Assembly: GCA_900318995.1 (NCBI GenBank)
Contig: ONMR01000003.1
Coordinates: 1-64,000, forward strand
From: an uncultured Prevotellaceae bacterium
GTDB lineage: Bacteria; Bacteroidota; Bacteroidia; Bacteroidales; Bacteroidaceae
DNA length: 64,000 nt
Direction: 5' to 3'
The translations under genes were made by a program, and so were the position numbers. Shown here piece by piece: positions 5,869-57,960 of this stretch. Position 1 is the first letter of the stretch. Each line of letters begins with the position of its first letter. The notes beneath the pieces were generated by a model that searched no databases, had not been told where the DNA came from, and worked only from the letters and a program-made list of their open reading frames with translations.

Positions 5869-7179
5869 ATGAAAACAATCTGTCTGTATTTTGAGATTCA
5901 TCAGATTATCCATCTCAAGAGGTACCGTTTCTTTGATATAGGTACAGACCACTATTATTACGATGATTATGCCAATGAGACCAGCATAACCAATATCGCC
6001 GAGAACTCATATATCCCGGCACTGAAGACGCTCATTGACATGGCCCGCAAGAGCGAGGGTGCCTTCAAGGTAGCCCTGTCGCTGTCAGGCGTCGGTCTGG
6101 AACAGTTGGAGCGTTATGCTCCCCAGGTGATAGACCTGCTTCAGGAACTGAACGAGACCGGTTGCGTGGAGTTCATTGCCGAGCCTTATTCACACGGTCT
6201 GGCATCATTGGCTCCCAACGGAGAGAAGTCATTCCGTGAGGAGGTAAAGCGTCAGGTTGACAAGATAAACCAGCTTTTCGGTCAGAAACCAAAGGTATTC
6301 CGCAACTCCAGCCTTATCTACGATGATGAGATAGGCGGTCTGGTGGCCGATATGGGATTCAAGGGAGTGCTTACCGAGGGTGCCAAGCACATCCTGGGCT
6401 GGAAGAGCCCCCATTATCTCTATCACTGCGCTCTCAATCCCAACCTGAAGGTATTTACCCGTGACTACAAGCTGTCCGATGACATCAGCCTGAGATTCTC
6501 CAATCCTTCATGGGAGGCATATCCGCTTATGGCCGACAAGTACATGGACTGGATTGCCCAGAGCCCCGAGGAGGACGGTGTGTTCAACATTTTCATGGAG
6601 CTTTGCGCACTTGGAATATATCAGCCGCTCAGCTCAAATATCCTGGAGTTCATGAGCAACCTGCCGGTTGCCGCCAAGGAGCGTGGCATAGGATTCCAGA
6701 CTCCGTCGGAGGTTATCAAAACCCATAAGTCAGTTTCTTCGATAGAGGTTCCTTATCCCATGTCATGGAATGATGAGGAACGCGATATCAGTTGCTGGCT
6801 TGGCAACGTGATGCAGCGTGAGGCTTTTGACAAGCTCTATTCAATCGGAGAGCGTGTCATCCTGGCAAACGACAGGCACTTGCGTCAGGACTGGGATTAT
6901 CTGCAGGCCAGCAATAACTTCCGTTTCATGACCACCAAGAACAATGCCGTGTCAATGGATCGCGGAATCTATGAGTCACCGTATGATGCTTTCACCAACT
7001 ACATGAACATTCTGGGTGATTTCCTGCAGAGAGTTAACTGGGCATTGCCTCTGGATATAGATACCGAGGAGCTCAACGCCTTCCAGACTACAATCAGCAA
7101 TCAGGACAAGAAAATTCAGTCACTGGAGAAACAGGTGGCCCGACTCAAGGCCGCGGCTGACAAACCCAAGAAGAAATGA
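5869..7179 (+). CDS. GH57 family glycoside hydrolase (alpha-amylase-like)
   Basis: 436 residues starting with ICLYFEIHQIIHLKRYRFFD, typical of the GH57 (beta/alpha)7 barrel N-terminus in Bacteroidetes, followed by CVEFIAEPYSHGLASLAP and FRNSSLIYDDEIGGLVADMG. The last ~35 residues (from TTISNQDKKIQSLEKQ) are a charged coiled coil rich in Lys. No signal peptide, so cytoplasmic. The family hydrolyses or transfers alpha-glucans; I did not confirm the catalytic pair. Last gene of the debranching enzyme-GT4-GH57 unit, followed immediately by a strong terminator. Confidence 0.87.
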   Translation: MKTICLYFEIHQIIHLKRYRFFDIGTDHYYYDDYANETSITNIAENSYIPALKTLIDMARKSEGAFKVALSLSGVGLEQLERYAPQVIDLLQELNETGCVEFIAEPYSHGLASLAPNGEKSFREEVKRQVDKINQLFGQKPKVFRNSSLIYDDEIGGLVADMGFKGVLTEGAKHILGWKSPHYLYHCALNPNLKVFTRDYKLSDDISLRFSNPSWEAYPLMADKYMDWIAQSPEEDGVFNIFMELCALGIYQPLSSNILEFMSNLPVAAKERGIGFQTPSEVIKTHKSVSSIEVPYPMSWNDEERDISCWLGNVMQREAFDKLYSIGERVILANDRHLRQDWDYLQASNNFRFMTTKNNAVSMDRGIYESPYDAFTNYMNILGDFLQRVNWALPLDIDTEELNAFQTTISNQDKKIQSLEKQVARLKAAADKPKKK

Positions 7180-7181
7180 AT

Positions 7182-7220
7182 AAAAAACCTTGCGATTTAC
7201 TTACAATCGCAAGGTTTTTT
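7182..7220 (+). terminator. Intrinsic terminator, probably bidirectional
   Basis: Perfect stem AACCTTGCGATT / AATCGCAAGGTT with a 7-base loop, a run of T on the right and a run of A on the left. It sits between the convergent ends of the GH57 gene and the DUF4270 gene. Confidence 0.9.
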
Positions 7221-7235
7221 TGATCCGTTTTTCAA

Positions 7236-8675
7236 TCAGAACTTGGTGCGTATTGTCTTAATCTTGATAGGCGTATTTCCGCCAATCAGTTTGATCTGAT
7301 GCATCCTTGTGTCCACCCTGTAGCTAAGGGCATTGTTCCGGGAGTCCGTTGTGGCAATGACCGGAATCAGGACAACCTTGTTCCAATTGGGATATTCGGC
7401 CTCATATGCTGCTGATGTACTGCCGTTTGAATTCTTCCATTCCTCACGTTCGCTGTAAATATTCTCAATCAATGCAGCTATATTTTCATAGGTGTATGTG
7501 CCGTATTTGCTTGAATATGATGCAGCAAAGGATTCTGTATTGTCTATGGATCGGTTTCTGGAGAAAAACTCCTGCATCCGGTCCTTGCGTATGAGCATGA
7601 GATTGTTGGGGACTGACGGCTTGAATCGGCTGGAGGGTGTCACGGCAGTCGATATGCATAGCTTGGCGGAGTTCAGCACGTACTCATCATCTCTCATATC
7701 ATCAATGGGGAGAGTGATTTCGGTCAAAAGACCGAACGGAGTTCTTATCCAGGTGCAACTGCTGTCGTTAATCTGGCTTTCAAGCCCGGTCCATTTGAAA
7801 CTGTTTAGCTGCATCACCTCACTGTTGCCGGGGAATTCGGCCATCAGGGACTGTACGATAGGTTCATCGTCATCATTGGTGTCTATGAACTTGAAATTGA
7901 CTTCAAGTATTGTACGGTCTATGTACAGAATGGTGCCGTCACCCTGCGAACAACGTATGTAAAAACCTTTGTAGAGGTTCTCCATGAATGACCTTGCGTC
8001 CGAAAAATAGTGACGGGTGGCAGGATCGAAATAAGACTCCAGTATGTTCTTGGCTACCGAATCGGGTAGGGGAATGGTTATGCTGGGAGTATAGTTGTAA
8101 AGATCACGGATAGAGTCCTTGTCCTGAAGGTTCCATCCTGAAGCGGTTATGCTTGCCAAAGGCTTGGCCTGCGTGTCACAAAAAAGTGACGGGTCAATGT
8201 CTGGGTAATAGCGGGTTTCGGCATCAATCATCCTGTCGAGCGGGAATACCTCTATCTTGAAGGTGTTGGTTGAATCACCGAAGAATCCGCTGTAATAGAG
8301 CCTGAGATTGGCGTAATAGGGCTTTTGTCCGGCAACCGCACTGTCAAACCATGAGGGGAATACATGATTGCCTATCCCGTAAACCGAATCGGCCAACGTG
8401 AAGTTCTCCATGCAGTTGAGCTGAGTCAGATATCCGGCATTGAGTGTGGTTCCGCTGAACTGTTCGGTGAACCTACCCAAATTGCATGTTGAACTCATCA
8501 CGATAAGGGAGTCATTGGCCTTTATTGTGCGTGAAACAGCAAAGCAGGAGTCATCTTTTACGTTAATGATATCATTCTGGGGAGTCAAAGTCCAACCCAG
8601 ACCTGAAGTCTCATCGTCACATGAAATCAGAAACAGAACTGCAAGTATACTGCATACTGTCGTCTTGAGATTCAT
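7236..8675 (-). CDS. DUF4270 family lipoprotein
   Basis: 479 residues with a lipoprotein signal peptide (lipobox LISC, Cys at about residue 19, followed by DDE). The segment after it (GLGWTLTPQNDIINVKDD) and the overall length match DUF4270 proteins of Bacteroidetes, which are outer-membrane-associated lipoproteins of unknown function. Acidic residues directly after the lipidated Cys resemble the surface-export signal known for Bacteroidetes lipoproteins. It follows the short glycogen synthase gene by 12 bases on the same strand, an arrangement I recall from other Bacteroides next to panC-panD. Confidence 0.8.
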   Translation of the reverse strand: MNLKTTVCSILAVLFLISCDDETSGLGWTLTPQNDIINVKDDSCFAVSRTIKANDSLIVMSSTCNLGRFTEQFSGTTLNAGYLTQLNCMENFTLADSVYGIGNHVFPSWFDSAVAGQKPYYANLRLYYSGFFGDSTNTFKIEVFPLDRMIDAETRYYPDIDPSLFCDTQAKPLASITASGWNLQDKDSIRDLYNYTPSITIPLPDSVAKNILESYFDPATRHYFSDARSFMENLYKGFYIRCSQGDGTILYIDRTILEVNFKFIDTNDDDEPIVQSLMAEFPGNSEVMQLNSFKWTGLESQINDSSCTWIRTPFGLLTEITLPIDDMRDDEYVLNSAKLCISTAVTPSSRFKPSVPNNLMLIRKDRMQEFFSRNRSIDNTESFAASYSSKYGTYTYENIAALIENIYSEREEWKNSNGSTSAAYEAEYPNWNKVVLIPVIATTDSRNNALSYRVDTRMHQIKLIGGNTPIKIKTIRTKF

Positions 8676-8687
8676 ACCTGTATAAAA

Positions 8688-9491
8688 TCAGATTTTGTTA
8701 TAGAAGTCATTTATGATATCGGCCCCCATTGTGCTGGCATCACCCTCCAGGACGGGAATGCCTTTTCCTTTTGCGAATGCAGTGAGAGAGGCATCAACCG
8801 AAGCCGAGTTGCAGATTACTCCGTCTGAGAACTCAATTGCTTTCTTCATTACGGAATTATAGTCTATGGGAGTGTCAAAATCTCCGATATCGCCCATGGT
8901 CATATCCTTGGTTGGGATTATTCCGGGATATTTGTCGCTGAAACTGTTCCGGAAAGCCTTGTCATAAAGAGAATAAACCACCTTTGAGTCACGGAAGGCC
9001 GGCTCTTCATGATAGGCTTTCTTTATGTAAAGAGGTATGAGTGCCGAAAGCCAGCCGTGGCAGTGGATGATATCGGGGTTCCAGCGCAGTTTCTTGACTG
9101 TCTCAAGTACGCCGCGGGCAAAAAAGATGGTGCGCTCATCATTATCCTCATACTCCACACCGTTTTTATCGGTTACCTGCAGACGGTTCTGGAAAAAGTC
9201 CTCATTGTCAATGAAATAGACCTGGATACGGGCCGATTGCAGTGAAGCCACCTTAATTATTAGCGGATGGTCCGTATCGTCAATGATCAGGTTCATTCCG
9301 GACAGGCGGATAACCTCGTGCAACTGGTTGCGACGTTCGTTTATATTGCCCCATTTGGGCATGAAGGTACGGATATCGTTACCCAATTCCTGGATGCTTT
9401 GAGGCAACTGCCTGCAATAATCCGCCATTGGAGACTGAGCCACGAAGGGCGAAATCTGATCAGCAATGATAAGGATTTTTTTCTCGCTCAT
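8688..9491 (-). CDS. Half-size glycogen/starch synthase-like protein (GT5 N-terminal domain only)
   Basis: 267 residues corresponding to the N-terminal catalytic domain of glycogen/starch synthase (GT5), including DIIHCHGWLSALIPLYIK and VVYSLYDKAFRNSF. A full GT5 enzyme is ~480 residues; the C-terminal Rossmann domain, which carries much of the ADP-glucose site, is absent and no matching sequence follows in another frame, so this is not a recent frameshift. The N-terminal K-x-GGL motif is also missing (IADQISPFVAQSPMADY instead). Short forms like this are common in Bacteroidetes genomes. It may be non-catalytic or work with a partner. Transcribed with the DUF4270 gene. Confidence 0.8.
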   Translation of the reverse strand: MSEKKILIIADQISPFVAQSPMADYCRQLPQSIQELGNDIRTFMPKWGNINERRNQLHEVIRLSGMNLIIDDTDHPLIIKVASLQSARIQVYFIDNEDFFQNRLQVTDKNGVEYEDNDERTIFFARGVLETVKKLRWNPDIIHCHGWLSALIPLYIKKAYHEEPAFRDSKVVYSLYDKAFRNSFSDKYPGIIPTKDMTMGDIGDFDTPIDYNSVMKKAIEFSDGVICNSASVDASLTAFAKGKGIPVLEGDASTMGADIINDFYNKI

Positions 9492-47047: not shown

Positions 47048-48301
47048 TTATTTCTTCAGGCTATGTCCGATGAGGTAGCAGATGACTGCCACAACCATGC
47101 CGTTGATCGAGGCGATACCCCAGTGCAGCAGGTTGGCTACGACAGCACCCAGGACAACGCCGATGACTGCAGCCCAGTTGACTGTATCAATCTTTACATT
47201 ATCGGACTTGTAATCGTTGCGGTTCATGAAGTAGCTGATTATCAGGATAGCGCCGATGGGAGGCAGGGTGCAGTTGAGTACGTTGAGCCAACCGCAGAAA
47301 TTCCAGTAGAGCCATACAGCTGAGATTGTGCCGATGATACCGGCTACAAGCACCATAGTCTTCTTGGAGAGTCCGAAAATATTTGACAGACCCAGACCGG
47401 ATGAGTAGAGTGCGTTGTCATTGGTGGTCCAGATGTTGAATCCCAGCACGATCACTGCAAACCAGAACAGGCCCAGGTTGAGCATAACCTCAAAGATATC
47501 GTTACCGCCCACGTAGATGCTGGATACGGCTCCGAAGAAGAACATCAGTGAGTTGCCCAGGAAGAAAGCCACTACGGTTACCCAGAAACCAATCTTGCCG
47601 TTCTTGCTGAAACGTGCAAAGTTGGGTGTTGCGGTGCCGCCGGATACGAAGCTTCCGATAACCAGACCGGCGCCGGCGATGATGGTAAGTGAACCGTCAT
47701 TTGACTTGGCAAACTGTTCGATGAGAGTGGAGTCACCGCGGTGAACGGCCATGATCATGGCTACGGTACCCAGGATACCAACCAGAGGAACGGCAATGTA
47801 GCTGATGATGGTAAGGCTCTTGATTCCGAAGTATGCGCTGGCGGTCATAAGGATACCGGCAATCACGACCAGGATATAACCCAGCGGGGGCATGTGGTCT
47901 GGTGTGACCTCAAGTCCGAACAACTCCTGTGCCACGGGAATGGCGAACATGGCCAGACCTACGCCGAACCAGCCCATCTGTGTGAAACTGATCATTGCGC
48001 TGGGCAGCCAGCTGCCTTTGCGGCCAAAACTGCGGTGTGCCAGCATATCAAGTGTGAGACCAGTCTCGGCACCGATGTAACCGAGTGTCCCGGTATAGGC
48101 ACCCAGGATGATGCCACCCAGGATGATTGCTCCGATGAATCCTGCAAAGTCAAGGCCTTTAGCCAGATTCTGGCCGGCCCACATGCTTGCCGAGAAGAAT
48201 GTGAATCCCAGCATTACCATAAACATACTGAGGTTGCTCTTGCGCCCCTCTTTAGTTACTCTTCCGGATGTAAAATCCGCATCGTTGATGTTATTAGCCA
48301 T
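47048..48301 (-). CDS. CodB-like NCS1 permease (cytosine or thiamine-pyrimidine transporter)
   Basis: 417 residues, ~12 membrane helices. Strongly resembles E. coli CodB along its length: MLGFTFFSASMWAGQNL, GYIGAETGLTLDMLAHRSFG, MGWFGVGLAMFAIPV, GLNIWTTNDNALYSSGLG-like FNIWTTNDNALYSSGLG. The family imports cytosine and related pyrimidines with sodium or protons. No cytosine deaminase is adjacent; it is 6 bases after a phosphoribosyltransferase-like gene in a unit led by a TPP riboswitch, so the cargo could be cytosine or a thiamine pyrimidine precursor. Confidence 0.9.
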   Translation of the reverse strand: MANNINDADFTSGRVTKEGRKSNLSMFMVMLGFTFFSASMWAGQNLAKGLDFAGFIGAIILGGIILGAYTGTLGYIGAETGLTLDMLAHRSFGRKGSWLPSAMISFTQMGWFGVGLAMFAIPVAQELFGLEVTPDHMPPLGYILVVIAGILMTASAYFGIKSLTIISYIAVPLVGILGTVAMIMAVHRGDSTLIEQFAKSNDGSLTIIAGAGLVIGSFVSGGTATPNFARFSKNGKIGFWVTVVAFFLGNSLMFFFGAVSSIYVGGNDIFEVMLNLGLFWFAVIVLGFNIWTTNDNALYSSGLGLSNIFGLSKKTMVLVAGIIGTISAVWLYWNFCGWLNVLNCTLPPIGAILIISYFMNRNDYKSDNVKIDTVNWAAVIGVVLGAVVANLLHWGIASINGMVVAVICYLIGHSLKK

Positions 48302-48306
48302 ATGTT

Positions 48307-49401
48307 TTATTTTGAGTATGATTTCAATGCTGCCCTGAATTCACTCAGACGGCGGTCTGCAATCTGACGTATGGAAAGGTCCTCGCAGCGGCTGGCAAAC
48401 TCCCTCTCAAATATGTAGAGTTCATTCATCTGCTTGCCGTCCAGTTTCTGATAGTGGTTGAGCCTGAGCCAATCGTCAAAACCAACGGGAGTGGGGTAGC
48501 CCAGTTTCTCGTCCAGGAAATCCTTGAAAGTAAAGTTGTCGGCCACCTTCTTTATCTCCTCCCAATACTCGGTAACCTCATGGAAATGGTCCGGTATCTC
48601 ATATCGGCGGGCGCCTCCGTCGTAGATGATGCACTTTTCAAAAAGGGCGTCGTCATCGGACAGGACATAACGGCGGAATTCAGGTGATATTACTCCGTCC
48701 TTCCAGAAGAAATCTATCTGGGGCCAGCTTATTCCGGTTACGCCCTTGTCCTGATAGGCCGAGAAGATACCCTCATAGAATATGCAGGTAATGCCCTCAA
48801 ACTCTGGCCAGTGGAAACGGAACTCGGGGGTGAGCTCCTCAAAAAGCTCAATGGCGCGGGTACCTCCGATGGTAAAGAACACCATGCGGCGGATGCTGCC
48901 TCCCAGACGCTTGAACTCGGCTATGATGTAGCGGATACAGCGTGCCAGTGTCTCGCCCGATGCTATGATATCGCCTATCATCAGGGTGATGTCCTTGGGG
49001 GCGCGCAGCTTGGTGTACCGGATGTCCAGACCGGTTATCTGGTTGTTGCGGATAACGCGCTCGCAGGATACAAAGTCCATGTTGTTGATGCGGATGCCGT
49101 TACGGTAGCAGCACTCTTCAAGGGGATAGTTCAGGCCGCCGCGCAGGATGGTCATGATATCGGCCTCGTCACCGATGGCATTCTGCTGCCTGAGCCAGCC
49201 CAGCATATCGCCGGTGGCGCCGCACATGGCCAGATAGGAGTCATAGCCTATGACCTCGGGTGATGCCAGCAGATGGCGTGTGCCCTGATTGCTGATAATA
49301 AAGTACCTGTTGCTGAAATTTCCGCCCTCCAGGCGATAGATGTCAGTCCCTTTGTGATGCCCTGCAGGCTGCAGGTAAGTATTTTCCAGATAAGGCTGCA
49401 T
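48307..49401 (-). CDS. Uncharacterised protein with type I phosphoribosyltransferase-like core
   Basis: 364 residues from the ATG at 49401 (MQPYLENTYLQP); an ATG at 49431 would add ten residues. The N-terminal half has ADIMTILRGGLNYPLE (residues ~80-95), as in uracil PRTases, and LMIGDIIASGETLARC (~140-155), a PRPP-binding loop of the type I PRTase kind (here G-D in place of the usual acidic pair). The second half (~170-364) is rich in aromatic residues and unassigned. No close family recognised. Position between pnuT and a codB-like gene suggests pyrimidine or thiazole nucleoside/base salvage. Confidence 0.7.
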   Translation of the reverse strand: MQPYLENTYLQPAGHHKGTDIYRLEGGNFSNRYFIISNQGTRHLLASPEVIGYDSYLAMCGATGDMLGWLRQQNAIGDEADIMTILRGGLNYPLEECCYRNGIRINNMDFVSCERVIRNNQITGLDIRYTKLRAPKDITLMIGDIIASGETLARCIRYIIAEFKRLGGSIRRMVFFTIGGTRAIELFEELTPEFRFHWPEFEGITCIFYEGIFSAYQDKGVTGISWPQIDFFWKDGVISPEFRRYVLSDDDALFEKCIIYDGGARRYEIPDHFHEVTEYWEEIKKVADNFTFKDFLDEKLGYPTPVGFDDWLRLNHYQKLDGKQMNELYIFEREFASRCEDLSIRQIADRRLSEFRAALKSYSK

Positions 49402-49468
49402 AATGATGCTTGCTTTAATTCTGGAAACCAAAGGTACTCAGATAGAGCGGGTTGAATGCTACCGGCCG

Positions 49469-50101
49469 TCAGAAAGTTTTCAACAATTTTCCTTTTACCC
49501 GCCACTTGATGTAACCGTAGACCGATGCACCCAGGTAGAAGCTGTAGAGCAGGATGGTGGTAAGGTGCAGGCCGCGCTTGCTGTAGATGTAGATTGATAT
49601 GAGGTTGACCAGGAACCAGATGCCCCAAACCTCGATGATCTTCTGTGCAAGTACCCAGGTGCCCACGATGTTGAGCATGGTGGTCAGGGCATCGAGAACT
49701 GGAACGGGAGAGTCTGTAAGGAACCTGAGGATGCAGAATATCGCACCCCAGATAATGGCAGAAACTCCAAGTACCGCAAGGAACTCCATGCCACGGAAAT
49801 GGCGGTAGACAATATCGTGCGATGCGCGTTTACGGTCACCATGGAGCCATTTTATAAAACCGTAAACGCACATGCAGATATTGAAACAGCTGAATCCCAT
49901 ATCGGCATATATCTTGCTGTGGAAGTATACGCTGGCATAGATCATTGAGCACATTGCGCTGATTACCCACATCAGCGGTTTCTGATGGAACTCAAGCCAC
50001 AGGTAGATGAAACTCAGGATGAGTCCTACAGTCTGGATCGTTGCCCAGAAATCCATGCCGGTAAACTGACCGGCGATATATGACCAGATATCGGATAACA
50101 T
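49469..50101 (-). CDS. pnuT: PnuC-family vitamin transporter, probably thiamine (PnuT)
   Basis: 210 residues, about seven membrane helices, with the PnuC-type repeats SFIYLWLEFHQKPLMWVIS, FNICMCVYGFIKWLHG and FLVNLISIYIYSKRGLHLT / YLGASVYGYIKW. PnuC proteins are facilitators for unphosphorylated vitamins that rely on intracellular kinases. The thiamine assignment comes from the TPP riboswitch and TonB receptor upstream, as in other Bacteroidetes; riboflavin- and nicotinamide-riboside-type relatives look alike. Confidence 0.85.
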   Translation of the reverse strand: MLSDIWSYIAGQFTGMDFWATIQTVGLILSFIYLWLEFHQKPLMWVISAMCSMIYASVYFHSKIYADMGFSCFNICMCVYGFIKWLHGDRKRASHDIVYRHFRGMEFLAVLGVSAIIWGAIFCILRFLTDSPVPVLDALTTMLNIVGTWVLAQKIIEVWGIWFLVNLISIYIYSKRGLHLTTILLYSFYLGASVYGYIKWRVKGKLLKTF

Positions 50102-50107
50102 TGTCTT

Positions 50108-52594
50108 TTAGAATTTCAGGGTTAAGTGTGCCAGCGCGCTGAAAGGTGCGGTGGGTATGAATCCTATCTGATAGTAACGGTTATCGGGCGTGAAACCGTC
50201 TTTTTCATCGACAGCCGAATATACCCAGCCGCTAGTTGCAACGCGGGCATTGAGTACATTGTTCAGGTCTGCACCTATCACGATGCTATTGAGAGCTTTT
50301 TTCATGGGTACTGTATATGAGAACGAGAGATCCGAGAGAGAGTAGGCGGGCAGTGAACGGTCTGTGTTCTGGCTGTTGTCCAGATACTGACGGCTTACGT
50401 AGCCGGTGTGCCAGGTGGCCTTGAATTGACCGAAACTGAAGTTAACGAATCCGTTCAGTATGACTGACGGTGAGAATGCCAGCGCGGTCTTGCCCTTGTG
50501 GGGTATGGTGCGCAGCTTGTCGCCGTTGCCGTCAATGTGGTAATCCTGCTTGTACTGCTCCATTTTGGGGTCATCGGCCGCATACTTGTCACGCCAGTCC
50601 TCAATCACTTCGTCAAAGTCATTCAGGCAGTTCTCGCTCAGTGCGGCGTTGCCCTCAAATGACAGCCATTTGAGCGGCTCCACGGCGGCGGTCAGCTCTA
50701 TTCCGGTGCGGTATGAACTCTTGATGTTGGTGGTCAGGTTCTCGCCTATGTCACTTACTGCACCGGTCTGTACGAACTGGTCCCTGTAGTCCATGTAGTA
50801 GAGGTTGAATCCTGCGTTCCAGATGCTGCCTGAATAGCTGTAACCGGCCTCGTAGTCAATCATGTATTCAGGGGCGGGAGCAGGGTAGGTGCCGTTGTCG
50901 GTAAAGTTGTTGCGTTCGGGCTCACGGCCTGCGGTTGCTGCAAGTGCATGTACGCGGTGGCCGCCTTTGGTCCAGGTGAGACCGGCTTTGGCATTCAGGA
51001 AGTTGTATTTCTTATCGATGTCCAGATTGTGCTTTGAGCATGTTCCGTCATCATTTACGTAGTATTTGTCATTGTAACCGTCCGTACTGTAACCCACGTG
51101 ACGGTACTGTGCATCGGCAAAGGCGTGCAGGCTCTCTGTGATATCGTATCCTGCCTTGATGAATGCAGTCAGGTCACTCTTCTTTGCGTCCGAATTATAA
51201 TAGGTATAACGGCCGTCAGAGAGCAGAGCCTCACTCAGGGCATCATTCTTTATGTATGTAAGGTAACCGAAGTGGTTGCCGTTGAACATCTGGAGAGATA
51301 TGCCGCCACGCAGGTCAAGGGCGTCTTTTGTGTAGGCTGTATTCCAGATTGCACCGTAGGTATGCTGCTCAAGACCCTTCTGACGGACAAAATCTGTCTT
51401 CTTTACGGTGTTGGTGCCATCTGACCATACTGGATCCCAATCGGCGTTCAAGCCATTTGAGAGACCGTACTTGCTGACCTTGTTGTTGTAACGGAACTCC
51501 TCATAGTAACCGTAACCGTAAGTGTAGTGGGCGGTGAGTGATGTGGAGAGGGCGTCGTTAACGTTCCATGCCAGTGAGAGGATGTTGTGGTCCTGCCAGA
51601 AGTTGTCGGTGGTGCGGTCCCAGAATGATCCGTCTTTCATCAGGTAGCGGTGGGTTACGTATTTGCCGTCGGCATCCTGTACAAAGCACCAGTTTTCATC
51701 ATCGTAATCAAGATACTCATACAGGCTGTTGTACTGTCCCAGTCCGGCATCGTACATATCCTTGTACTCCTTTATTCCGGTATCACCCAGATACATGCCG
51801 TCCATAAGGCTGGAATCATCGTTTCCGGCTGTGGCACCGTTCCAGGCCTGGCCGGTTATCTCAAAGTTGCCTATGTTGCGGTAGCGGATCATGATGTTGT
51901 CCGATGGTGTCCAGAGCAGACCGCCGTAGTAGCTTCCGGCCTTGCCTTTGGTTCCGTGCATGAATCCGTCGGTCTGGGTCATGTTGTATGCGCCGTCTAT
52001 GATGATGCTGTTAAGGATTGTTCCGGTTGAGAATGCACCTCCCAGACGCAGGGTGTTGAACGATCCGTATGATGCGGTCAGCTCGGCGCTCTTTTCGGGA
52101 TTGGGAAGCTTGCTGGTAAGTGCTATCGAACCACCGAAAGCACCGTCGCCAACTGTTGACGTGCCCAGACCACGCTGTATCTGTGCGCTGCCCAGCAGGG
52201 ATGCGTAACTGTTCATGTTGACCCAGAATACGCACTGGTCCTCGGGTGAGTTCAGGGCTACGCCGTCCAGGGTTACGTTGATTCGTGAATCGGCCGCACC
52301 GCGAATGCGCATGTAGGTGGTGCCGATGCCTGTTCCGTTCTCGCTCCATGCCGTCACACCGGGAGTGTGTGAGAACAGGAACGGTAGCTCGCGTCCGCTC
52401 TTGGAATAGCTGTCAAGTTCCTGACGGCCTATTTCGGTGGTGGCAAACGGTTCGTTTTCATGGGCGCGGACACCGTCGATTATTACTTCATTAAGCTGCT
52501 TGAGACGCACGGAATCGGCGTCAAACGTTTCATTACCGGCCTTGACTGCAAGGCTTGTGATTAGGGTTAAGGACAAAAAAAATACCTTCTTCAT
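50108..52594 (-). CDS. TonB-dependent outer membrane receptor, probable thiamine uptake
   Basis: 828 residues: signal peptide (MKKVFFLSLTLITSLAVKA), a plug domain with IGRQELDSYSKSGRELPFL and TYMRIRGAADSRINVTLDG, and a barrel ending in a terminal Phe (SALAHLTLKF). No carboxypeptidase-like N-terminal domain. Directly downstream of a TPP riboswitch and 6 bases before pnuT, so thiamine (or a phosphate ester) is the likely ligand. Confidence 0.88.
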   Translation of the reverse strand: MKKVFFLSLTLITSLAVKAGNETFDADSVRLKQLNEVIIDGVRAHENEPFATTEIGRQELDSYSKSGRELPFLFSHTPGVTAWSENGTGIGTTYMRIRGAADSRINVTLDGVALNSPEDQCVFWVNMNSYASLLGSAQIQRGLGTSTVGDGAFGGSIALTSKLPNPEKSAELTASYGSFNTLRLGGAFSTGTILNSIIIDGAYNMTQTDGFMHGTKGKAGSYYGGLLWTPSDNIMIRYRNIGNFEITGQAWNGATAGNDDSSLMDGMYLGDTGIKEYKDMYDAGLGQYNSLYEYLDYDDENWCFVQDADGKYVTHRYLMKDGSFWDRTTDNFWQDHNILSLAWNVNDALSTSLTAHYTYGYGYYEEFRYNNKVSKYGLSNGLNADWDPVWSDGTNTVKKTDFVRQKGLEQHTYGAIWNTAYTKDALDLRGGISLQMFNGNHFGYLTYIKNDALSEALLSDGRYTYYNSDAKKSDLTAFIKAGYDITESLHAFADAQYRHVGYSTDGYNDKYYVNDDGTCSKHNLDIDKKYNFLNAKAGLTWTKGGHRVHALAATAGREPERNNFTDNGTYPAPAPEYMIDYEAGYSYSGSIWNAGFNLYYMDYRDQFVQTGAVSDIGENLTTNIKSSYRTGIELTAAVEPLKWLSFEGNAALSENCLNDFDEVIEDWRDKYAADDPKMEQYKQDYHIDGNGDKLRTIPHKGKTALAFSPSVILNGFVNFSFGQFKATWHTGYVSRQYLDNSQNTDRSLPAYSLSDLSFSYTVPMKKALNSIVIGADLNNVLNARVATSGWVYSAVDEKDGFTPDNRYYQIGFIPTAPFSALAHLTLKF

Positions 52595-52642
52595 ATAGAT
52601 TTAAATGTTTAATCCAAATGAAAAGGGTATACCAATTATCAG

Positions 52643-52723
52643 AAATCCAATCCCTCCGCCGGCACTGTCCGGATCAGGTTCTAAGGGTATAATCTCAGCC
52701 TCGTTGCGAGGCACCCCCTTTCA
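52643..52723 (-). promoter_or_regulatory. TPP riboswitch (THI box)
   Basis: On the minus strand: GGGGGTGCCTCG, GAGGCTGAGATTATACCC, GAACCTGATCCGGACAGTGCC and GGCGGAGGGA, the conserved THI-box blocks in order (GGGGTGC, GCTGAGA, ACCC, GAACCTGATC, GCGNAGGGA). It lies ~50 bases before the TonB receptor start. A T-rich terminator is not obvious after it, so control may be translational or by a weak antiterminator. It should repress the receptor-pnuT-PRTase-codB unit when TPP is plentiful. Confidence 0.95.
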
Positions 52724-52871
52724 TTCTGGGCGCGAAATTAGTTGTTTTTTGCAAACGGTGTCATTGGGTATTCTTTTTTTTATGGTCGAATTAAACTTTC
52801 TTGGACTAAATGTTGATAAATGTGAAATGGTTGTTTATATTTGCTTTTACAGAATACCAAATTGCATTCTT

Positions 52872-54645: not shown

Positions 54646-57600
54646 TTATCGGATGTTGGGTTTGCCGGGAGTGGCCACAGATGCGCTGAATGCATCGCCT
54701 GCCCCGTGATTTCTTGTTACGGGAGCTGCCAATGTAATTCCGCTTCCGGTCAGGTAGGAGCCTGCCTGGACATCCTGCTTGAGTCCGGTGGCAATTGTAA
54801 TGACATCGGGCTGGGAGGGCTGCTGCGGACGGCCCCAACCGCCACGGCGCGGAGCCATCTGGATGGCGCTGATTACATAACTGTCAGAGCCGATGGTTAT
54901 GGTCTGGCCGTTCTGGAATCCCTGTGCGCTGGCAACTGATATCCTGGTCTCATTCCTGGCGGCATCGGCCGATAAGGTAGTGGCACCGGCTGTACCGATG
55001 GTGGCAATCCTTACTTTCTCTATAGTGTTGCCTGAGCCAAGATACATAACCTGACCGATTGAGAGGCCCTGAACGGATGTAACCTTTACGTTATCCTGTC
55101 CGGTCTGCACAGGTGCTGCTATCGTCATGGCCTGGCCGGAGTGGAAATCCAGTTTGTTGTCATCGGTGTCAAAACCGTCGGGATAACGTCCGGTGCTCAA
55201 ATCCGGACCGGCTGCCGGGGTTGCGGGAGCGGCTCCGAATCCGCCGAATCCGCCACGACCGCGTCCTGACTGCGGAACGGGAGCGTATGAGCCCTCGGCA
55301 CCTGCGCCTGAATCACCATGATAACCCTCTGCCAGCCACGGGTCAACCAGACCGCCGTAGTTCATGGCATCCACAATCAGGCCCTTACCGTTGCGCAGGG
55401 TCATGTTGCCGCGGGAACCGTCCAGAACCGGGCCTCCAAACAGCAGGTCGGGCTCCGTTTCACCCTGATAACCGGCATTCTGAACATTTACGTCCAGTAC
55501 AACGCTGTTGATGGGATGCTTCTTTGAGAGCGGCTTGTCCAGCTCAAGGGCGTAGATAAGAGGCAGTACGGGCTCGTTGCTGGAGTGGTCAAACTTGGTT
55601 GCGGGCTCAAATGTTATACCTGTACCGTTTACTGCAAACGGCATGTTGCTGGAGTGGTCATACTTGAGCGGGGCTTCCAGCTCAAGACCGGTGCCGGGAT
55701 TGTCATTGGGTCCGAGCGGGCCGTTGAACGTGTTGCGTGACGACTGCGTGCCTACGCTCTTTACGGTAACCCATTCAACGCCGTGACCTTCAGAGTCTAT
55801 GTCAAGACGGATCCTATCGCCGGCGGTGATGTTCTGGGTGCTTGAAACCTTGATATTGGTATCACCCTTTCTGGCATCGGCCGATAACCATGCCTGGGTG
55901 CCTGGCTTGCCTACCTCGGTGACAGTCACAACCTCATACTTCTCGAGTGAGTTGGAGACGGCGGGGTAGGTTGAGCCGTATCCGATGGCCATCTTCTGAC
56001 CGACCTGGAATCCGGCTGTGCTGGTTACGGGGATGTTGGTGGAGCCTGCAGGGATGGTAATTACCGGACCTTCGGGAAGAGGCTGCCATACGGTGGTGGG
56101 ATTGCCGGCAGGGCCTGCACCACGGAACGCACCCTGCTGAGGCTGCTGCGCCTGAGGCTGGATGATGTTCTTTACAGTACGCTTTTCGGCCTCGTTGCCT
56201 GTGCCGATGGTAATCTCGTGACCGGCCTCGATTCCGGCAACGCTGCGTACATAAATTACGTTGTCACCCTTTGCTGCATCGACCGAAAGACCTGAGTTGC
56301 TTATACCCATCAGATAGAATGACTTGGGCGCAAGTTTGGTGCCCTTGGGGACATTGATTGATGAGAAGTAAGGCAGGTTCACGGCGTGATGTGTGAGTGT
56401 CCATCCGGACAGGTCGACAGACTTGTCACCATCATTGTAGAGTTCTATGAATGAGTTGGTCTGGTTGCCGCTGCCGTCGGCTATACGGAACTCGTTGATT
56501 TTGACGGGTTCAACGTTGCGGACCTTCTGTGAACTGAGCCACTGGCTGTTGCCGCGGTCCCACTTGGCCCATGCGGTCAGGTCGGCATTGATCTGTTTCC
56601 TGGCAGATGTTACGGTAAACTGCACGGCTACTGTCTGTCCGGGTTCGACGGTGTAACCAATCTTGCGGGTCTTGCTGTTAGTTCCGGCAGCCACGCTCTT
56701 CCAACGCTTGGGAGTAAGCACGCGGAGCTCCAGGTCTTCGATGGGGCGTCCGGTGGTATTGGTGAATGTAACTGTTACGTTCTGTGTGGTCTTGGGTGCG
56801 AATGTCTGCAGCAGGTTGGGCTTGTCAACTTTGTTGGGAGCGCTTATGCTGAGCATTGACACGTCATATCCGGCTGCTACCACATTAGCCTGAACCTTCT
56901 GGTTGGTCTCAATGGAGGGGAATGTGCCGGGGGCGGTCATGGCACCTTCGTAGAATGTGCCCGATGAGCCGTTGGAGTTGTCGCCGCCGTTACCCAGCAG
57001 GATGGCGCCCTGTTTGCGCATGGGATCGTAACTGCTGCGCGGGTTCTGGATTCGGCCTCCGTCATACATTATCTGCAAGTCGCCGCCCTGGGCATTGCCG
57101 CCCATGGAACGCCAGTGGTGAGGCTCACCGTCGGCTGTGGCGGTTACAAAACGCCAGCTTATGCTGGGCAGGTCAGCGCAGTACTTGTCGTTGGGATCGG
57201 GGTTGACGCAACCTACCAGGTTGTTCTCCTGGTCGGTCATGATCCACGGGCCGGGAGCCTGTCCGTGATACCATGAGGGCTGGTTGCCGTAGTATGTGGT
57301 CTCCATCGTGCCGTCACCGTCGTCGCGGCTGTCGGTCTCGGCGTTACCGTAGTCAAAGCAGCAGCCGGTGTTGTAGTGCTGGCCGTTTATTACCCAGTAC
57401 TGGCCTTCGGCCTGGTCATCGACAGCGGTGCCGTGGGTATCGTTCCAGCGCAGACCCATACCGGCTGTTATGAACACGCCATAGACCTTGTGGCCCATCA
57501 GTGTCACTGGAGCCCAATCGGCCATTGGCACGTTGTTGAATCCGCCCATTGCCTGGCCGCTGAATCCTCCGCGCGGGGCCTGCTGCAGGTGGTTCTCCTT

Positions 57601-57960
57601 GCCTGACTGGTCATAGATTACGGTTATCCAGCAGTAGGTGTCCTTGCAGAAACGGTCCTGTGCGGCGGCATCGGCATAACCTCCGGGGTCACCGGCCGAT
57701 GGCTGCACCACGCCGATATCCAGAGTCTTGCCGTCGCTCTGGCGCATAACCTGATAGAGCGGGCCGTTGTAGGATTTGTAGAGAGCGCGGGTAGTTGAAT
57801 GCGCTGCAACGCAGGGCGCACCACCTTTGGCGTAAACATCGCAAGGCCCGTCGGGGCGCTGCGGAATCTTGCTGTCACCTGCCGCTACGGCGACGGTGGC
57901 AATGAGTGTCGGGGCTAAGGCTACTCCGGCCAACAAAAGGACAATAGATGATTTTTTCAT
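54646..57960 (-). CDS. Multidomain GH54 alpha-L-arabinofuranosidase
   Basis: 1104 residues. Signal peptide (1-~27, VAVAAG), GH54 catalytic domain (~36-370) very similar to fungal AbfB: GPCDVYAKGG-PC, HSTTRALYKSYNGPLYQV, YDQSGKENHLQQAP, CCFDYGNAE (probable nucleophile E208) and GAILLGNGGDNSNG. Cysteines for disulfides are kept (C40, C50, C105, C110, C200, C201). Then a NEW3-like domain (~385-470), a lamin-tail-like domain (~482-555, INEFRIADGSGNQT) and repeated beta modules (~560-1095) with recurring TSxxGFxxGQxxxIG and DARKGDTNIKVSS patterns, Gly/Pro-rich linkers (PQAQQPQQGAFRG, GRGGFGGFG). Acts outside the cytoplasm on arabinose side chains. No lipobox. Confidence 0.88.
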   Translation of the reverse strand: MKKSSIVLLLAGVALAPTLIATVAVAAGDSKIPQRPDGPCDVYAKGGAPCVAAHSTTRALYKSYNGPLYQVMRQSDGKTLDIGVVQPSAGDPGGYADAAAQDRFCKDTYCWITVIYDQSGKENHLQQAPRGGFSGQAMGGFNNVPMADWAPVTLMGHKVYGVFITAGMGLRWNDTHGTAVDDQAEGQYWVINGQHYNTGCCFDYGNAETDSRDDGDGTMETTYYGNQPSWYHGQAPGPWIMTDQENNLVGCVNPDPNDKYCADLPSISWRFVTATADGEPHHWRSMGGNAQGGDLQIMYDGGRIQNPRSSYDPMRKQGAILLGNGGDNSNGSSGTFYEGAMTAPGTFPSIETNQKVQANVVAAGYDVSMLSISAPNKVDKPNLLQTFAPKTTQNVTVTFTNTTGRPIEDLELRVLTPKRWKSVAAGTNSKTRKIGYTVEPGQTVAVQFTVTSARKQINADLTAWAKWDRGNSQWLSSQKVRNVEPVKINEFRIADGSGNQTNSFIELYNDGDKSVDLSGWTLTHHAVNLPYFSSINVPKGTKLAPKSFYLMGISNSGLSVDAAKGDNVIYVRSVAGIEAGHEITIGTGNEAEKRTVKNIIQPQAQQPQQGAFRGAGPAGNPTTVWQPLPEGPVITIPAGSTNIPVTSTAGFQVGQKMAIGYGSTYPAVSNSLEKYEVVTVTEVGKPGTQAWLSADARKGDTNIKVSSTQNITAGDRIRLDIDSEGHGVEWVTVKSVGTQSSRNTFNGPLGPNDNPGTGLELEAPLKYDHSSNMPFAVNGTGITFEPATKFDHSSNEPVLPLIYALELDKPLSKKHPINSVVLDVNVQNAGYQGETEPDLLFGGPVLDGSRGNMTLRNGKGLIVDAMNYGGLVDPWLAEGYHGDSGAGAEGSYAPVPQSGRGRGGFGGFGAAPATPAAGPDLSTGRYPDGFDTDDNKLDFHSGQAMTIAAPVQTGQDNVKVTSVQGLSIGQVMYLGSGNTIEKVRIATIGTAGATTLSADAARNETRISVASAQGFQNGQTITIGSDSYVISAIQMAPRRGGWGRPQQPSQPDVITIATGLKQDVQAGSYLTGSGITLAAPVTRNHGAGDAFSASVATPGKPNIR

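Follow-up and report, generated by a model that had tools for sequence, protein, structure and literature searches.

Gene order at the locus

The subject of this analysis is a gene pair, PRT-codB, located in a 64,000-nucleotide stretch of DNA (the window; GenBank assembly GCA_900318995.1, contig ONMR01000003.1, positions 1 to 64,000 of the forward strand) from an uncultured Prevotellaceae bacterium, the draft genome of which comprises 2.50 Mb in 42 contigs and is 87% complete. PRT (48307-49401, minus strand) encodes a type I phosphoribosyltransferase (PRTase)-like protein of 364 amino acids, and codB (47048-48301, minus strand) encodes a putative cytosine permease. The pair lies behind a thiamine pyrophosphate (TPP) riboswitch aptamer (52634-52728, minus strand), the gene for the TonB-dependent receptor of a thiamine-uptake unit (50108-52594, minus strand), and the gene for a PnuT-type inner-membrane transporter (49469-50101, minus strand). 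The original prediction had placed a TPP aptamer before these four genes, and this was borne out, the aptamer scoring 71.5 bits with RF00059 (gathering threshold, 54.3; E = 4.2e-12) and all four genes lying on the minus strand. The tight spacing claimed for them held for the first and last intergenic gaps (6 and 5 nucleotides [nt]) but not for the one separating PnuT from PRT, which is 67 nt long and contains a conserved promoter-like motif.

Predicted fold and conserved loops of PRT

The length of PRT was counted from an ATG codon, and 19 close relatives align from residue 1 of the protein so started; the longer TTG start listed falls within the TACCTTTG motif described below. No Pfam or NCBIfam family was matched over its cut-off, and no relative was found among PDB sequences at E values up to 10. 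The AlphaFold2 model (20 rows) had a predicted local distance difference test score (pLDDT) of 81.4 and a predicted template modelling score (pTM) of 0.85. When it was compared to the PDB with Foldseek, the best five matches were uracil phosphoribosyltransferase (UPRTase) chains from S. solfataricus and A. aeolicus, headed by 1xtt (E = 2.2e-6; TM score of 0.58 by target length), after which hypoxanthine and adenine PRTases (HPRT and APRT) appeared among further UPRTases. The best 50 of the 72 hits at E ≤0.001 were all PRTases by title (2e55 by molecule name). The model of a relative 25% identical to PRT (locus L022; pLDDT, 66.6; pTM, 0.75) likewise found three UPRTases first and then APRTs. 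In profile-profile comparison with eight UPRTases, PRT scored 84% (E = 7.9e-6) over residues 76 to 192. The Pfam models themselves gave no match to PRT: three distant members reached 12.2 to 17.7 bits with PF00156 (Pribosyltran; cut-off, 26.3), and two reached 14 to 15 bits with PF14681 (UPRTase; cut-off, 27). An origin of PRT in phage or defence systems was not supported, since nothing better than E = 0.031 was found in PHROGs, nothing with PADLOC, and nothing that was confirmed in a scan of viral contigs.

The putative phosphoribosyl pyrophosphate (PRPP) loop of PRT, LMIGDIIASGETL, had been noted in the original prediction, and the protein does look like a PRTase. This loop recurs letter for letter in 3 of the 7 other loop-bearing members aligned, while the remaining 4 vary from it; all keep G-D-[IV]-[IV]-A-x-G-x-[ST]-L. 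The motifs LRGGLN, GD-[IV]-[IV]-A-x-G, FFTIGG, and E-[KR]-C-x-IYD-[AG]-G-x-R are kept in members down to 24% identity, and the LRGGLN and GD loops are lost in three degenerate relatives (L049:8520-9479, L050:6109-7065, and L051:7312-8208). The first two of these, from other Bacteroidales, lie between genes that we take from their sequences to be trmD- and pyrD/pyrK-like.

PRT shares with Upp, the UPRTase of PF14681, the predicted fold, the LR-[AG]-GL loop, and the A-[ST]-G PRPP loop, and its C-terminal D-[AG]-G-x-R resembles the GDAGDR of UPRTases (model pLDDT below 50 in this stretch). The two differ in that PRT is longer (364 amino acids, compared to 208 for Upp), has additional N- and C-terminal parts, falls below the family cut-offs, and has GD where the UPRTase loop has DP. 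In E. coli, upp adjoins the uracil permease gene uraA, the same permease-plus-PRTase logic as in PRT-codB, where the permease is CodB rather than UraA. By predicted fold, PRT is a type I PRTase nearest to the UPRTases, and it probably acts on a pyrimidine base.

The permease CodB

The CodB-like character claimed for the last gene was confirmed: the protein scored 440.4 bits with the NCBIfam cytosine permease equivalog NF008241 (cut-off, 326), is 47.5% identical to E. coli CodB, and matches PDB 7qoa (E = 8.2e-103). Its score with the model for CytX, the hydroxymethylpyrimidine transporter (TIGR02358), was 90.4 bits against a cut-off of 309.85. The residues contacting cytosine and forming the sodium site of P. 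vulgaris CodB were taken from the relevant passages of PMC9379551, which also describe uptake by that protein as sodium dependent, and were compared with 23 of the 26 PRT-linked CodB proteins, L002, L017, and L038 being left out. The cytosine-contacting side chains F33, Q105, W108, F204, and N280 were identical in all 23, as were S203, S206, and the listed sodium-site residues. A207, a main-chain contact, was glycine in all 23, and G202 was alanine in 2. The CodB of the window thus looks like a cytosine transporter, as judged from its residues. At one locus (L017:9129-10356), CodB was matched in two pieces beside an intact PRT, which may reflect a damaged gene or a fault in the assembly.

Pairing of PRT with CodB across genomes

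The comparison covered 61 genomes, including 37 of the genus, of which 24 carry PRT and 13 do not. PRT was found in 25 of the 61 and CodB in the identical 25; the set includes G047, in which PRT and CodB are 28% and 49% identical to those of the window on a 5.8-kb contig. The main group was defined as 22 loci, namely, the window, L002 to L020 (19 genomes), L037 (genome G013), and L153 (genome G015); G016, where a contig end leaves only a fragment of PRT, and G017, with a divergent PRT copy (53%), fall outside it. Further pairs were found at L021 (PRT, 51%) and in G549 (PRT, 27%), so that the pairing holds in the main group, L021, G017, G047, and G549, with PRT-CodB gaps of 2 to 18 nt in L035, L048, L021, and L036. 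The genome of the window alone carried PRT among 395 genomes sampled across the phylum, and 8 of 393 sampled across the order had a match at E ≤0.001. These eight comprised three with intact loops (the window's genome, G047, and G549), three degenerate (G609, G507, and G760), and two short matches of 93 to 95 amino acids (G813 and G517). Only G549 itself carried PRT among four genomes of its family, and plasmid searches with two PRT proteins gave no match.

PRT-codB as a probable separate unit

The start of PRT is preceded by TACCTTTG (49429-49436, minus strand; 35 nt before the start codon), an instance of TAnnTTTG, which we take to be the Bacteroidetes -7 element. TAnnTTTG begins 29 to 37 nt before the PRT start codon in all 22 main-group loci. 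Counted over 21 loci, it was present in 21, compared to a mean of 0.19 and a maximum of 3 after shuffling, and G015 (L153) has it too; since the loci are related, the 22 are not independent events. About 40 nt further upstream lies a conserved element, AAATTGTTGAAAACTT (49474-49489, minus strand), which overlaps the last pnuT codons and was matched once in the window against 0.02 expected. In an alignment of eight sequences, the block from TGTTGAAAAC to TAnnTTTG, together with TTCCAGAA behind it, was common to both of the gene arrangements described below, as is the core of the AAATTGTTGAAAACTT element, whereas the sequence further upstream was unrelated between them; in the window, the block extends upstream into the last pnuT codons. 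Outside the main group, L021 has TAnnTTTG at -39. None was found near the PRT start codon in L036 (G017), L035, or L048, which counts against the generality of the motif. It is inferred to be the working promoter of PRT-codB.

Scanning of the gap region for sigma-70 promoters gave results at the shuffle level, including one sigma-70-like site (9/12) at 49483-49456. No regulon emerged for the upstream element, as the combined pattern occurs once in the genome. Two observations had been named in the original prediction as refuting a thiamine link, namely, a promoter and terminator of the pair's own upstream of it or family members unconnected with thiamine genes in other genomes, and the outcome on both counts went against that link. 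A promoter-like motif was present; no terminator-like site was seen on the gene strand in the PnuT-PRT gap, the scan being at the shuffle level, so that read-through from the riboswitch operon is possible in the arrangement of the window.

Two arrangements were observed. The pair is found downstream of PnuT, on its strand, in 17 of the 22 main-group loci; in the other 5 (L011 to L014 and L037), it precedes the riboswitch on the same strand and so lies beyond the control of a riboswitch placed ahead of the receptor gene. On trees of 23 PRT and 23 CodB proteins, the upstream arrangement needs three changes; well-supported branches force one of these on the PRT tree and three on the CodB tree. 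More distantly, tblastn with the receptor and PnuT of the window gave no match at E = 1e-5 in the stretches around L021, L022, L035, L036, and L048, and in G017 the pair is unlinked, the riboswitches being on other contigs. A single riboswitch-controlled operon of four genes was accordingly rejected as the functional unit on the basis of the pair's own motif and its upstream arrangement. PRT-codB is very probably a unit of its own, and the best explanation of the locus is two independent units lying end to end, with PRT-codB adjoining the thiamine unit in most PRT-bearing genomes of the genus.

Deaminases and uracil phosphoribosyltransferases

With E. coli CodA as the query, four weak partial matches were obtained in the 61 genomes. 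The two that were opened (L101 and L102) resemble L123, a methylthioadenosine/S-adenosylhomocysteine (MTA/SAH)-deaminase-like amidohydrolase that passes none of the NCBIfam cut-offs listed, and the best CodA match among 19 amidohydrolase loci was L102 (E = 7e-8; 25% identity over 211 residues). An MTA/SAH-deaminase-like amidohydrolase was matched in two pieces in the genome of the window (L126 and L136, contig C19) but as a single piece in relatives, G021 and G007 among them. Cytidine deaminase (CDA)-fold and amidohydrolase genes were searched in six genomes, namely, four PRT-bearing and one PRT-free genome of the genus and G549. Three CDA-fold matches were found in each of the five genus genomes and four in G549. 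In the window's own genome, one of the three is TadA-like (120 versus 150 bits), one is a cytidine deaminase over one of the cut-offs, and the third is presumably a dCMP deaminase, judging by its sequence.

The genome of the window encodes a UPRTase bearing the usual loops (L139), and a full-length UPRTase-family gene was found in all 24 PRT-bearing genomes of the genus, so that PRT would be redundant as a UPRTase there. Among the 13 PRT-free genomes, 7 have a full-length UPRTase and one (G035) has a fragment. Replacement of a missing UPRTase by PRT was thus rejected for the genus.

The thiamine unit and neighboring genes

The TPP aptamer is the sole Rfam match over gathering threshold in the window and the sole TPP match found in the genome. 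The receptor gene directly behind it matches PF00593 and PF07715 over cut-off. The PnuT gene product belongs to the PnuT/PnuC family (PF04973; 135.7 bits; cut-off, 27.3) and is called PnuC by the NCBIfam model (73.6 versus 42.45 bits), its assignment to thiamine resting on the TPP riboswitch that precedes the unit. In the parts of PMC5613172 on gut Bacteroidetes, a TPP riboswitch with receptor and PnuT is the thiamine-uptake layout, which upholds this part of the original prediction, and tnr3 is its third gene in most genomes studied. The window unit has the riboswitch, receptor, and PnuT in common with the OMthi-pnuT-tnr3 operon of those passages; it differs in that its third gene is not tnr3 and in that PRT-codB stands as a unit apart, which relatives may lack or may carry on the upstream or the downstream side. 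The first unit is an ordinary thiamine-uptake operon.

Of the 37 genus genomes, 36 have a TPP match at E ≤0.001 (over cut-off in 34); in the remaining one, G026 (L002), the contig breaks within the receptor gene. All 13 PRT-free genomes have a match, that of G032 being below cut-off, and the surroundings of a riboswitch were read in each. In four (G014, G023, G028, and G034), the DUF3078 and EamA genes of the window come directly after receptor and PnuT, and PRT-CodB is absent. Another six (G001, G003, G019, G027, G031, and G035) have receptor and PnuT in a different setting, and in three (G024, G030, and G032), no receptor or PnuT match was seen beside the riboswitch read.

Divergent from the thiamine unit is a cytidylate-kinase-like gene (PF13189; 52605-53516), whose true start probably lies inside the longest open reading frame, as the latter overlaps the riboswitch on the other strand; in L011 to L014, this gene adjoins PRT divergently. 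Next to it are a VKOR-family protein gene (PF07884; 53494-54639), the product of which may have a thioredoxin-like second half, and the gene for a protein of 1,104 amino acids (54646-57960) that combines a lamin-tail domain with the catalytic domain of an alpha-L-arabinofuranosidase B (PF09206; 400 bits).

Discussion

The second unit is tentatively proposed to be a cytosine-salvage pair with its own promoter. CodB would bring cytosine in by sodium symport, PRT would condense it with PRPP, yielding CMP and pyrophosphate, and the CMP would enter the nucleotide pool without deamination to uracil. This reading falls somewhat short of being probable as a whole; that PRT is catalytic, with cytosine as its base and CMP as its product, is deduced from sequence and from the predicted model. 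The import and ribosylation of a base had been suggested in the original prediction, with cytosine as one option, and it is this option that is favored here, whereas the proposed connection to thiamine is not supported. The unit may be compared to the E. coli codBA operon, in which a related permease likewise shares a tight unit of two genes with another protein, the difference being that the partner of CodB is here a PRTase-like protein and not the deaminase CodA. Since no deaminase for it was recognised, imported cytosine would have no recognised fate save PRT, to the extent that absence from draft genomes can be relied upon.

Several observations weigh against this interpretation. PRT passes no UPRTase cut-off, and in single-sequence comparison by hhalign the best score was for E. 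coli Apt (45%), followed by Hpt (4.4%), PyrE (2.8%), the genome's own Upp (1.0%), and E. coli Upp (0.2%), so that sequence leaves its position among the type I PRTases uncertain. The putative base-binding stretch (residues 261 to 267) has a pLDDT below 50, and the PRPP loop has GD where many PRTases have two acidic residues. Co-occurrence with CodB within one genus is not independent per genome because of shared ancestry. No UPRTase match was found in G047, which carries PRT-CodB and is 61% complete. Cytosine deaminases of an unrecognised family may exist, and the genomes are drafts. Finally, the relative at L022 (27% identity), from a metagenome-assembled genome labelled proteobacterium, had no CodB match in the 16 kb fetched; it overlaps by 4 nt (locus 7130-9156) a PNP/UDP phosphorylase-family gene whose product is closest to uridine phosphorylase (128 bits; model cut-off, 280), which points to uracil in that lineage.

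An unlikely but credible alternative is a role for PRT as an additional pyrimidine PRTase, its base being uracil or a pyrimidine analogue, with CodB importing that base or with imported cytosine being deaminated by an unrecognised enzyme. It is consistent with UPRTases being the nearest folds, with the gene overlap at L022, and with subthreshold matches to UPRTase models from L035 (NCBIfam, E = 2.6e-4) and L022 (PF14681, E = 0.018). Uracil also inhibited cytosine uptake by P. vulgaris CodB, yet hardly stabilised the protein, according to the passages of PMC9379551 concerned. The presence of a UPRTase beside PRT throughout the PRT-bearing genomes of the genus argues against such a second enzyme, as does a CodB site that is the cytosine transporter's.

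It is improbable that PRT, instead of being a salvage enzyme, uses its PRTase fold to regulate or chaperone pyrimidine uptake. PyrR is a PRTase-fold regulator of uracil permease operons. The extra N- and C-terminal parts of PRT would fit such a role, as would its degenerate branch, in which the fold is kept without the catalytic loops and two of three members lie beside the trmD- and pyrD/pyrK-like genes. It is opposed by the conservation of catalytic-type loops across members 24 to 27% identical and by the lack of a leader hairpin, folding of the PnuT-PRT gap being no better than that of shuffled sequences (z = 0.07).

Membership of PRT-CodB in the TPP operon, with salvage of a thiamine pyrimidine or breakdown product, is very improbable. 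In its favor, the pair mostly follows PnuT with no terminator-like site between, and of the 24 PRT-bearing genus genomes, 22 have it in a thiamine neighborhood (it is unlinked in G017 and cut by a contig end in G016). Against it, the pair has its own conserved promoter-like motif, stands upstream of the riboswitch in five loci, and lacks receptor and PnuT matches nearby in its distant occurrences (L021, L035, L036, and L048); its permease falls far below the CytX cut-off (90 versus 310 bits), and the 13 PRT-free genus genomes all have a TPP match.

The pairing of PRT with CodB is undescribed, the PRTase fold and the permease each being known. Two 2021 papers, PMC8497467 among them, state that no cytosine phosphoribosyltransferase has been identified; one of the two relates the lack of such an enzyme to the particular part that CTP plays in growth and tables the design of a synthetic version among engineering ideas. 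The passages on cytosine in a 2026 review (PMC13328217) give the CodA route only. In the open literature, outside which most subscription papers lie, the term "cytosine phosphoribosyltransferase" occurred in these two and otherwise for a misnamed protein in a rat study. A conserved pairing of a cytosine permease with a UPRTase-like protein, with no cytosine deaminase found in the searches, is a concrete candidate for such an enzyme, and it is possible, if rather doubtful, that PRT is the first natural one. Even with another base, PRT would be a protein matching no family over cut-off in Pfam or NCBIfam. If the cytosine reading is true, these bacteria would be able to reach cytidine nucleotides without passing through uracil or CTP synthase.

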